Counted from the first letter of the stretch, positions 11,815 through 15,643 are shown. The stretch: 41,852 nucleotides of DNA from Candidatus Saccharimonadota bacterium (GCA_013316435.1 WSMR01000002.1:1-41852); one strand, 5' to 3'. Notes: a model not told the origin generated them from the sequence alone. Made by a program: numbers and translations.

Positions 11815-12021
11815 TCACCCCTCCCGTACCACACAGCGAACGGCAAAACCGTACCCGCGGTAATTGTTATTTTGAGGGCGGACAGCCGTCTGGTACGTAC
11901 CCAAGTAGTGACCGTAGGTAGCAGAGCCAGCAGTAGTAGACCACCAGTAGCCAGACGTGACGCGTGCGTAGACGCCGCCATACGAGCGATAGTAGTAGCC
12001 CGTACGGAGAAAGTTGAGAGG
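11815..12021 (-). repeat. Cassette R1: orphan C-terminal domain fragment, PLNFLRTGYYYRSYGGVYARVTSGYWWSTTAGSATYGHYLGTYQTAVRPQNNNYRGYGFAVRCVVREG*
   Basis: Translation of minus strand; shares conserved ends with R2-R4; no credible start codon in frame. Confidence 0.85.
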
Positions 12022-12065
12022 ATTGCTCTCTATTGGCGTGATAAAGTATGATATAATGTTTTTAT

Positions 12066-12141
12066 GCCGTTGTAGCTCAGTTGGTAGAGCAGCTCATTCG
12101 TAACGAGCAGGTCGCTGGTTCAAGCCCAGTCAACGGCTCCA
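12066..12141 (+). tRNA. tRNA-Thr (CGT)
   Basis: GCCGTTG/CAACGGC acceptor, anticodon loop TTCGTAA, encoded CCA. Confidence 0.95.
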
Positions 12142-12151
12142 GGCATTATCA

Positions 12152-12181
12152 AATAGAGACAGTCTATGGGCTGTCTCTATT
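12152..12181 (+). terminator. tRNA-Thr terminator
   Basis: AATAGAGACAG-tctatggg-CTGTCTCTATT perfect inverted repeat. Confidence 0.75.
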
Positions 12182-12281
12182 GTGTTTGTTTTTACTCCTC
12201 TCTCGTAAAACCTACGGTTTTACTCTCCTCGGGCGTCGACTCAAAAGAAAAAGTTTTTTCTTCACCCGTCTCCTACGAGGT

Positions 12282-12481
12282 TCACCCCTCCCGTACCACA
12301 CAGCGAACGGCAAAACCGTACCCGCGGTAACCGTTACTCTGAGGGAAGACAATCGTCGGATACGTGCCCAAGTAGTGACCATGAGTAGCAGAATCAGCAG
12401 CAGTAGACCACCAGTGGCCAAACGTGACGCGTTCGTTGATGAGACCATTCGAGCGATCGTAGTAGCCCGTACGGAGAAAGT
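12282..12481 (-). repeat. Cassette R2: FLRTGYYDRSNGLINERVTFGHWWSTAADSATHGHYLGTYPTIVFPQSNGYRGYGFAVRCVVREG*
   Basis: Translation of minus strand, frame missed by the ORF track; same conserved ends as R1. Confidence 0.85.
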
Positions 12482-12583
12482 AACAAACTCCACAAATGTT
12501 GGATTTTTTCGAGTTTGTGGAGTTTAAACAATCTATCGATCCCTGTTGCTGTTTTTATTTTCTTTTTGACGAGAGAGTTAAGC

Positions 12584-13594
12584 TTAAATATGCCGGATGC
12601 GGTTTTTGGTCTGATAATTAATTTGTTCAGTCTCAATCATTGGATAACTGATTAATTTTTTGCTATCTATTTTAGTTTTATGCATTTCTACGGCCGAAAT
12701 TTGATGGTTGTCATAAGTTGTATAGTAGCAAATACCTTTATCGAGGTTATAACCGGACGAATAAACTGTGATTTCGTAGGAATCGGATTTTACTTCATTA
12801 GACCCGCGTGACTGATCGCAAGAATGGAGAATATGGAAATATTGGCTGATACTGCTTTGCTCGTCATCGGCAGACTGAGCGTGCGACTTATGGAAGCAGG
12901 CGCGCACAAAACGCGACTGTGAGTCTAACCCGCCAGGCAAATTACGAGTGCCAATTCCGCGACCATAATACGACAAGTTCAGCTTGGGCGCAAAGGAGTT
13001 TTTGGGATCTTTGGGAGAAATTGTCATGTAATTATTAAGTTGGAAAAGTTGTGCAGGGAAGGGTGGGTTATTGGTTAAAACACCGATAGGGTTATCATAA
13101 ATCATCAAGCCCGCGGCGGTTGATTCGACTGTGATTGACCGCTTGGCGTCGGCAATAATCCAGTGCAGCTCAGCAACCGGCAATTTATCGCTAAAATTAT
13201 TGTTGTAGAAGCTCATTTTTTGAACCAAACGCTCGGCTTCGTCGACATTGGCACATTGCGAAAGTACCCACGGAATAAATTCCCATGGAGCAATATTGTC
13301 TTTTGTTTGATCAAGAGGGAAGAATTTTGCATTACCGACAAAGTTAAGTCCAGCGACCCCGAGACCTTTTTCGTTGATGGCATCATAATAGAGAGGATAG
13401 TTACTGCCGTTATCATCTTTTACCACGTAAGCAACGCCAATAATAGCATGGTGATTGTCGAGCGTGCCTGCTTCACGGAAGTTTAGCGGGAATTTGCGCG
13501 GGGTAATCGTGATAGTCTCATCATAAGAGTATTCCAGATCAAGATTTCTGCCAAAATAAGTATTTCGAGTTTTATAAACAATAGACGTGCACAT
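12584..13594 (-). CDS. Choloylglycine hydrolase/linear amide C-N hydrolase family (bile salt hydrolase/penicillin V acylase-like)
   Basis: MCTSIVYKTRNTYFGRNLDLEYSYDE N-terminus with Cys2 nucleophile, GRNLD, GVLTNNPPF, LDSQSRFVRA motifs; SD GGGAGG upstream. Confidence 0.9.
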   Translation of the reverse strand: MCTSIVYKTRNTYFGRNLDLEYSYDETITITPRKFPLNFREAGTLDNHHAIIGVAYVVKDDNGSNYPLYYDAINEKGLGVAGLNFVGNAKFFPLDQTKDNIAPWEFIPWVLSQCANVDEAERLVQKMSFYNNNFSDKLPVAELHWIIADAKRSITVESTAAGLMIYDNPIGVLTNNPPFPAQLFQLNNYMTISPKDPKNSFAPKLNLSYYGRGIGTRNLPGGLDSQSRFVRACFHKSHAQSADDEQSSISQYFHILHSCDQSRGSNEVKSDSYEITVYSSGYNLDKGICYYTTYDNHQISAVEMHKTKIDSKKLISYPMIETEQINYQTKNRIRHI

Positions 13595-13671
13595 TCTTAC
13601 CTCCCTTTTCGTTAATTATAGCATAATCATTATAGCGCATAGAAAAACCTCCAGTATTGGAGGGCTTTCTA

Positions 13672-13747
13672 TGGTGGTTCCGGTCGGACTTGAACCAACG
13701 ACACAAGGCTCTTCAGGCCTCTGCTCTACCAACTGAGCTACAGAACC
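13672..13747 (-). tRNA. tRNA-Phe (GAA)
   Basis: Reverse complement GGTTCTGTAGCTCAG...anticodon loop CTGAAGA...CGGAACCACCA. Confidence 0.95.
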
Positions 13748-13922
13748 ATAAAGACATTATAACATAAAAATTCTAGAATGTGTAGAACTTCAGCAAAAAC
13801 CTCTTAAAAATACACAAAAATAACCCCAGTTTTTCTTAACACACCGTAAAGTTTTGGGAAAAGTCTAGAATTTGTGCGGGCGGGGATTATCTATAATTAC
13901 AGTGGGCGGGAGAAGGGAAGAA

Positions 13923-14816
13923 ATGCTAAAAGTTGCGGTATTTGGTATTGGACGGGGTGGAGAAGCCGTAGCTCAATATCTATCGACGGAATTAGGCACC
14001 GTAGAAATAATCGAAGTAATTGATTGGTCGAGTTCGAAAAATGTTTATCGTGACCCGAAAGTAATGCGTCAAATTGCTTGCCATTTTATATCGCCATACA
14101 TCGGAAAAGTAGATTTAGTAGTTTTGGCGGATTATGCATTGTCATTGGTGACAAACTCTCTCAAAAAACAGTGGCCTGAACAAAAGATCATTAGCATGGA
14201 AGTTGACTTTCGTCATGCGCCAAAATCTTGTCAAAATGCAAATGTTGTCACCTTGATCGCCAATGGGATCTTATTCCAATCGAAACTCGGAAGAGAAATC
14301 TGCAGACAGTTGTCTAGTACTAAGGTTATTCTTCCGGATTGCTCGGGATGGGAAGGTTTAATTGATAGCGGTGATATGTCGAAAGATATTTTGGAAATTG
14401 AGCTTAGCAAAACCTTCACCTTGGCTAGTAGTCGCAACCCTATCTCTCGCCATCAAAAGAAATTTTTGGACGGAAATCTTAGTTTACGATCAGAAGTAAT
14501 CAAATTTTTGTTGCGCACTACGCCAGCTGCGCGACCTAGTTTGGCGCTAGCTGGAGTGGGCGAGACGGGTATGAGGACGGAGGATACTAGCTCTAGCTGC
14601 AACGTCTCGCTGAGTGGTTTTACTTCCCGTTCTAGGCGACGATTGCCATCTCCGCAGGTGGCGTACCTACTCGGTACACATTTTTGGAACGTCGAAGATG
14701 ATTTGCAAGAGATATTTGGTTACGGAACTTTAGTAGTGGACTTTCGTAGGAAGTTGCTACACGATGTCTGTTTAGCGTTGAGGTTGAGGGGACTTGATGG
14801 GCGTCTAGGTGAATGA
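13923..14816 (+). CDS. Hypothetical protein, possibly Asp/Glu racemase-like in its N-terminal half
   Basis: MLKVAVFGIGRGGEAVAQYL...KVDLVVLADYALSL; start re-called to ATG 13923 with purine-rich SD; family assignment weak. Confidence 0.45.
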   Translation: MLKVAVFGIGRGGEAVAQYLSTELGTVEIIEVIDWSSSKNVYRDPKVMRQIACHFISPYIGKVDLVVLADYALSLVTNSLKKQWPEQKIISMEVDFRHAPKSCQNANVVTLIANGILFQSKLGREICRQLSSTKVILPDCSGWEGLIDSGDMSKDILEIELSKTFTLASSRNPISRHQKKFLDGNLSLRSEVIKFLLRTTPAARPSLALAGVGETGMRTEDTSSSCNVSLSGFTSRSRRRLPSPQVAYLLGTHFWNVEDDLQEIFGYGTLVVDFRRKLLHDVCLALRLRGLDGRLGE

Positions 14817-14860
14817 GCCGTACTTGTGGCAACAGGGGAGAAGTGCTATAATTTAGACAA

Positions 14861-14945
14861 CCCCGGATGGCGGAATTGGTATACGCGTTCGACTTAAAAT
14901 CGAATGAGGAAACTCATATGGGTTCAAGTCCCATTCCGGGGACCA
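14861..14945 (+). tRNA. tRNA-Leu (TAA)
   Basis: CCCCGGA/TCCGGGG acceptor, long variable arm, anticodon loop CTTAAAA, CCA. Confidence 0.95.
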
Positions 14946-14953
14946 AGGATTAG

Positions 14954-14978
14954 GAGTTCCGTAGGTGGAACTTTTTTG
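14954..14978 (+). terminator. tRNA-Leu terminator
   Basis: AGTTCCgtaggtGGAACTTTTTT. Confidence 0.65.
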
Positions 14979-14985
14979 TTTTTTC

Positions 14986-15219
14986 TCACCCCTCCCGTAC
15001 CACACAGCGAACGGCAAAACCGTGCCCGCGGTAGGTCCTAGGCTGAGAACCGACTACACCAGGATATACATATAGATAGTAACCCTGTGAGTCCACACCA
15101 CTTATCCTAGACCACCAATATCCGCCCAGTATGCGTGCCCCGATATTACCTTCAGATTGGCTATTGTAGACGCCCGTACGGAGAAAGTTGAGAGGAAGTA
15201 GTAAATAATGTATACTCAT
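14986..15219 (-). repeat. Cassette R3 (ORF with an upstream ATG): MSIHYLLLPLNFLRTGVYNSQSEGNIGARILGGYWWSRISGVDSQGYYLYVYPGVVGSQPRTYRGHGFAVRCVVREG*
   Basis: In ORF track; conserved PLNFLRTG, YWWS and GFAVRCVVREG blocks; interior strongly diverged from R1/R2/R4. Confidence 0.85.
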
Positions 15220-15423
15220 TTCTCCAATCTGTAAATTCTATCACTTTTACAGTATTCTTGTCATTTTTATCGATTTTTAGCAACTTTTTGAACATAATTT
15301 GCCGTATTCTAGTACTTAGAGTCTATACAGACGATTTTAGCTTTTTCGCGTGGTGGGGTAGCCATAAGAAGTTTGTAGCGATCCTAGGGCTTCCTAAGCA
15401 TGGCCAAGAATTTAATAAATTAT

Positions 15424-15643
15424 CCCTCTTCTCCGTACGGGCTTCTACGATCGCTCGTATGGCGGCATCGTCGTACGCGTCACGTATGGCTTCTGGTGGT
15501 CTACTACTGCTGGCTCTGCTACGCACGGTCACTTCTTGGTTACGTCCCCGACGAATGTCACTCCCCACGATAACTATTACCGCGGGTACGGTTTTGCCGT
15601 TCGCTGTGTGGTACGGGAGGTGAAGAATTGCAAGGTTCAATGA
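15424..15643 (+). repeat. Cassette R4 (inverted): LLRTGFYDRSYGGIVVRVTYGFWWSTTAGSATHGHFLVTSPTNVTPHDNYYRGYGFAVRCVVREVKNCKVQ*
   Basis: Plus-strand frame missed by ORF track; TAA immediately upstream; 2-nt loss near the usual stop shifts the terminus. Confidence 0.85.

Follow-up and report, generated by a model that had tools for sequence, protein, structure and literature searches.

Putative gene-less DGR variable regions dispersed as silent cassettes in a Candidatus Saccharimonadota genome

Silent-cassette gene conversion is known from Borrelia vlsE, Neisseria pilE/pilS and Treponema tprK, systems in which no reverse transcriptase (RT) is known to write the diversity of the donors. The locus described here has the same unexpressed partial copies, constant end blocks and mosaic variants; in contrast to those systems, its donor diversity is RT-written, and donation to the expressed gene is a step that we infer. 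DGRs of the Bordetella phage BPP-1 type combine a DGR-kind RT, a template repeat and adenine-specific changes with a C-terminal variable region (VR) in a surface-type protein, the 3′ end block being shared and divergence setting in right after it. All of these traits recur here. Unlike in BPP-1-type DGRs, however, tens of variable regions lie outside any gene, the template is located about 28 kb from the RT on the other strand, and one relative (G145) has at least 16 template-like copies. Remote DGR variable regions in genes have been described in Nanoarchaeota (PMC4372165) and in Thiohalocapsa PB-PSB1, which has 21 VRs in 15 targets (PMC10907252), and such adenine-biased regions were interpreted there either as fossils or as targets reached in trans. 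The present system resembles these in its adenine bias and in having variable regions away from the RT, but instead of a few VRs in genes there are about 45 start-less fragments. A large DGR survey states of its own approach that remote targets would escape it (PMC8144416). A library of gene-less variable regions was not found described in the literature searched, one main survey lying outside that search. As discussed below, the four repeats that we started from are probably gene-less DGR variable regions, belonging to a system in which the DGR writes variants while dispersed cassettes store and recombine them.

The window is a stretch of 41,852 nucleotides (GCA_013316435.1 WSMR01000002.1:1-41852) from a genome examined as 692,579 bp in 63 contigs (82% complete). 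An initial annotation, made from the window, had listed the repeats R1 to R4; Table 1 gives the extents used here. Their positions and strands were correct, the 5′ block (TTCTCCGTACGGGC) and the 3′ block are present as claimed, and a recount of R1 against R4 gave 17 differing residues, equal to the earlier figure. The proposed common design holds for R1, R2 and R4, which align as one scaffold. R3 has the end blocks alone in common with them, its interior being different and three bases longer, and it can be aligned only weakly with the current template. Since its end blocks are the same and its scaffold is not, R3 presumably derives from a different or older template. R1, R2 and R4 have zero in-frame starts; R3 has an ATG at a distance of 36, with no ribosome site. 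The annotation was also right that the window holds no RT, template or full-length gene, and all three were found elsewhere in the genome. Between R2 and R3 lies a bile salt hydrolase gene (NF038245, E = 1e-131) with about 61% identity to Clostridium and Bacilli, probably acquired from gut Firmicutes.

Table 1. Coordinates of the repeats and of the associated DGR features
Feature	Location	Strand	Reading and basis
R1	window 11815..12021	-	DGR variable-region cassette lacking a gene; allele of the current template
R2	window 12282..12481	-	DGR variable-region cassette lacking a gene; T at position 85, an older allele of the template
Bile salt hydrolase gene	window 12584-13594	-	
R3	window 14986..15195	-	end blocks as in the other cassettes, other scaffold (+3 nt); alignment
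Spacer of divergent pair R3/R4	window 15196..15428	no strand	flank comparison
R4	window 15429..15620	+	DGR variable-region cassette lacking a gene; duplicate site is C32:4130
Template repeat	C60:8340-8522	+	AAC/AAT at the variable codons
RT gene	contig C60, ~36.0-37.3 kb	-	RVT_1 above cut-off
452-aa ORF	L032:7326-8684	-	possible DGR accessory protein

The conserved 3′ block is repeated throughout the genome far above chance: its 20-mer core TTTTGCCGTTCGCTGTGTGG occurs 34 times with at most 3 mismatches, against 0 occurrences of the reversed control. For the 5′ block, 37 occurrences were counted at up to 2 mismatches (reversed control, 2), and a second-family cassette used as query at the protein level returned 49 places. 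When the template, the target gene and short pieces at contig ends are left out, about 45 cassettes remain, located in intergenic DNA, 4 of them in the window. Every copy except one decayed copy lies outside ORFs of at least 90 aa. The unit measures approximately 205-225 bp. Beyond the template-like part it gains no more than 10 nt on the upstream side and 25 nt on the downstream side, and no cassette reaches deeper into the 580-codon target. The frame is open to its native end in 34 of 35 cassettes; an in-frame start is wholly absent from 28 of the 35, and none of the 35 has a start with a ribosome site. Judged from the missing start signals alone, the cassettes appear to be silent by anatomy.

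The second family (LDFVYTG...GFALRCVGR) comprises about 10 copies on C37, C50, C59, C24, C6 and C32, some of them directly behind first-family cassettes, and no template for it was found in the genome.

Could these copies be debris, that is, useless accidental products of ectopic DGR retrohoming or of repair near the target gene, now being lost? The absence of start codons would be expected of debris, as would ends that are ragged in this genome, the few decayed copies (C32:613 and C50:38787) and the failure to identify a mobility enzyme. However, the ends cluster tightly, unlike those of random fragments, the frames are intact in all but one case, and tens of copies have been retained in several small genomes of the genus. 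Moreover, the unique non-adenine changes number 24 synonymous and 21 not, where 37% synonymous would be expected (p = 0.03), and none of them creates a stop. These observations make debris unlikely as an explanation, and we read the cassettes as DGR variable regions lacking a gene, not as random gene fragments.

A search of the genome for a DGR-type RT found a single one, on contig C60 (RVT_1, E = 7e-14). Its closest solved structure is 8ub7 (E = 4e-26), which we take to be the Bordetella phage DGR RT. It matches a PHROG RT family with E = 4e-67, and identity to phage RTs, including those of Bordetella and Faecalibacterium phages, is below 40% among the matches listed. Upstream of the RT gene and overlapping its start, a 452-aa ORF has no family match in Pfam, NCBIfam or (beyond E = 0.02) PHROGs; it matches no known accessory family (Avd or HRDC type) and is possibly a new DGR accessory protein. 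The variable codons had been expected to go back to a template with AAC/AAT at these sites, and such a template was found on the same contig as the RT. It reads FLRTGNYNRSNGNINERVTNGNWWSTTAGSATNGHNLNTNPTNVNPQNNNYRGNGFAVRCV and has Asn codons (AAC/AAT) exactly at the variable places of the cassettes, and the sequence after its shared 3′ block is unlike that of every cassette. These features identify this copy as the template repeat.

The target gene on contig C1 encodes a secreted protein (580 codons) whose variable region begins just before the contig ends. The assembly is thus interrupted within the expressed VR, of which 119 nt are present. Here the suspected resemblance to FISUMP / Fib_succ_major proteins (TIGR02145, PF09603) was borne out for the target, which scores 47 bits against TIGR02145 (cut-off 41.65). 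The cassettes differ from the full FISUMP domain in representing only its last 60-odd residues, and alone they score below the PF09603 cut-off.

Mismatches to the template fall predominantly on its adenines. In R1, mismatches affect 23/50 adenines and 2/133 other bases; the counts are 22/50 and 6/133 for R2 and 25/50 and 3/133 for R4, corresponding to 44-50% of adenines and 2-5% of other bases. When 27 cassettes are pooled, 601/1350 adenines (44.5%) and 104/3051 others (3.4%) are changed, a 13-fold difference (Fisher p = 4e-243). One cassette, C37:28293, has 24 adenine changes and 0/133 changes at other bases, and the expressed VR on C1 shows 15/35 and 0/84, respectively. Because an RT is present, the template carries AAC/AAT codons and the changes fall on template adenines, a DGR origin is established at sequence level, and most cassettes, R1, R2 and R4 among them, were written from this template by DGR mutagenesis. 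The initial annotation had offered DGR cassettes and a silent repertoire feeding a gene elsewhere as alternatives; the cassettes are in fact DGR-written and silent at once. The absence of starts bears out the silent part, and for the feeding step the comparison between cassettes and expressed gene (see below) is suggestive.

Two positions point to the age of the cassettes. Position 85 is C in both the template and the expressed gene, whereas it is T in 18 of 27 cassettes. Position 157 is G in the template and A, T or C in 13 cassettes, as if an older template had carried A there. These older alleles place the writing of many cassettes before the change in the template. A different kind of event is suggested by R4 and C32:4130. 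Contig C32 has a spacer related to that between R3 and R4, together with a second divergent pair. In the last 70 nt before R4 the left flanks of R4 and C32:4130 differ at 2/70 positions, and their interiors at 30/149. With the flank kept and the content changed, this gene-less site has been rewritten in place; fresh diversification of the cassette by the DGR itself could be another cause of the change.

The R4 site might be taken to mean that each cassette is a live DGR target, re-diversified in place and acting directly, for example as a source of small peptides or RNAs, and the 3′ end block that most cassettes have in common with the template would suit such targets. Most cassettes, however, retain the older template allele and hence have not been rewritten often. 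Translation signals are absent, and in four copies the 3′ block, where priming probably takes place, is no longer complete. We consider live targets improbable as a general account; storage of variants written by the DGR is the reading that we retain. The four copies in question (C15:3443, C5:2750, C24:2937 and C37:27463; L046, L061, L062 and L040) have a near-identical segment of approximately 90 bp in place of GCTGTGTG of the 3′ block, and their variable sites differ. The beginning of the same segment is seen at C17:252.

Comparison of cassettes with one another reveals copying and mosaicism. The interior of R1 is identical to that at C41:607, the flanks of both being unrelated, and also to that at C5:10222 as far as contig C5 reaches. 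The same holds for C37:12355 and C37:26986, with identical interiors and unrelated flanks. C7:15959 and C63:13210 show 4 differences in the first 36 sites and 1 in the other 147. C24:2937 equals C44:50 over the first 50 nt and, except for one base, C20:1120 over sites 70-163. Runs shared between cassette pairs reach 20, 32, 34, 39 and 39 variable sites, where the maximum after column shuffling (300 trials) is 18. Collectively, these data show that segments have been exchanged between cassettes by recombination. The 119 nt of the expressed VR on C1 are identical to R1 over sites 64-118 (p ~0.04 by shuffling), a match that only suggests transfer from a cassette to the expressed gene.

Identical units at unrelated sites might also arise if the cassettes were small mobile elements, spread by an integrase or transposase, with the variable region merely carried along. 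The sharp unit ends in the relative G011 and the closely spaced groups of alternating strand in G121 (see below) are compatible with this. Yet target-site duplication at the cassette ends was not significant (p = 0.08 versus shuffled flanks), no terminal repeat is common to the species compared, and what makes up the unit varies from species to species, although in every case it is the target's C-terminal end. Mobile elements are therefore very improbable, and we return to dispersed cassettes written by the DGR. As to how the unit spreads, no mechanism was found in this genome, where target-site duplications were lacking and the ends are ragged, and no mobility enzyme was identified. Nor could an empty site be shown among the sampled relatives, the closest of which are only about 74% identical in the neighbouring gene and are too distant. 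Targeting to tRNA genes was considered and rejected: 23/56 places have a tRNA gene within 300 bp, compared with 34% of random intergenic places in the same DNA (p = 0.26), and therefore only intergenic placement is supported. Structure on the 3′ side (mean z -1.8, versus -0.7 on the 5′ side) and antisense terminators (7 on the 3′ side versus 2 on the 5′ side, n=33) offer a weak lead.

The design is repeated in relatives of the same genus. A relative of this RT is present in 84 of 147 sampled genomes of the genus, and 143 of the 147 have at least one match to the cassette model, to which full-length genes respond as well. In the class sample outside the genus, only 3 genomes gave matches, with 1-4 each. 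Near-complete genomes of the genus are mostly 0.6-0.9 Mb, a size that fits membership in the Patescibacteria. G121 (8 contigs, 93% complete) has 77 matches, nearly all in short frames, with many cassettes closely spaced on alternating strands and one template adjoining its RT; this genome speaks against an assembly artefact. Its loci L387-L406 are arrays of gene-less cassettes on alternating strands, approximately 200-250 bp apart and with very diverse scaffolds. In G011, one template is accompanied by 13 close cassettes, with 368/715 adenine and 66/1742 other changes. G145 has 82 matches, almost all short, and in the part of the genome examined its 16 template-like copies are dispersed (L337-L356) and have a common 3′ flank (CGGTGCCGATCTTT) distinct from the flank of the cassettes. 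There, differences at 17/48 adenines and 0/132 other bases separate one cassette from one of the templates, and differences at 22/49 and 9/134 another cassette from a second template; apart from one perfect and one good pairing, most cassettes matched none of the templates examined. One RT may serve many templates in this species. G056, by contrast, has about 33 full-length genes. Cassettes of other families are seen in the neighbourhood that holds R1 in two further species of this genus, between tRNA-Asp and tRNA-Thr in G050 (L206, G050:C11:3055-3258) and close before tRNA-Thr in G130 (L216, G130:C9:26849-27049).

The gene-less cassettes are a real and, in the literature searched, new DGR variant, with a library function that we infer. 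In the model that we favor, the RT would copy the RNA of the template, making errors at its adenines, and the variable end of the target gene would be replaced by this cDNA. Variant copies, cut to the cassette unit, would land in intergenic DNA, where they would not be translated and would persist as a silent repertoire. Cassettes would swap segments by homologous recombination via the shared end blocks, and gene conversion could move them into the expressed gene, which the library would serve. Extended to the genus, and put forward here tentatively, the scheme might amount to a two-stage diversification with memory, in which the RT writes from one or many dispersed templates, a gene-less archive holds the variants and recombination reads them back into the expressed gene. 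Some species would then rely on such a silent archive, and others on full-length genes that form a large family.

DGRs and silent-cassette gene conversion have been treated as separate routes to variation of surface proteins, and one genus seems to apply both to the same protein end. It does so in genomes of a size at which spare DNA should be costly. Such cassettes would escape surveys that look only at the surroundings of the RT. The cassettes also form a dated record of earlier template alleles, so that sequence could tell how fast variants are written by the DGR, stored and reused.
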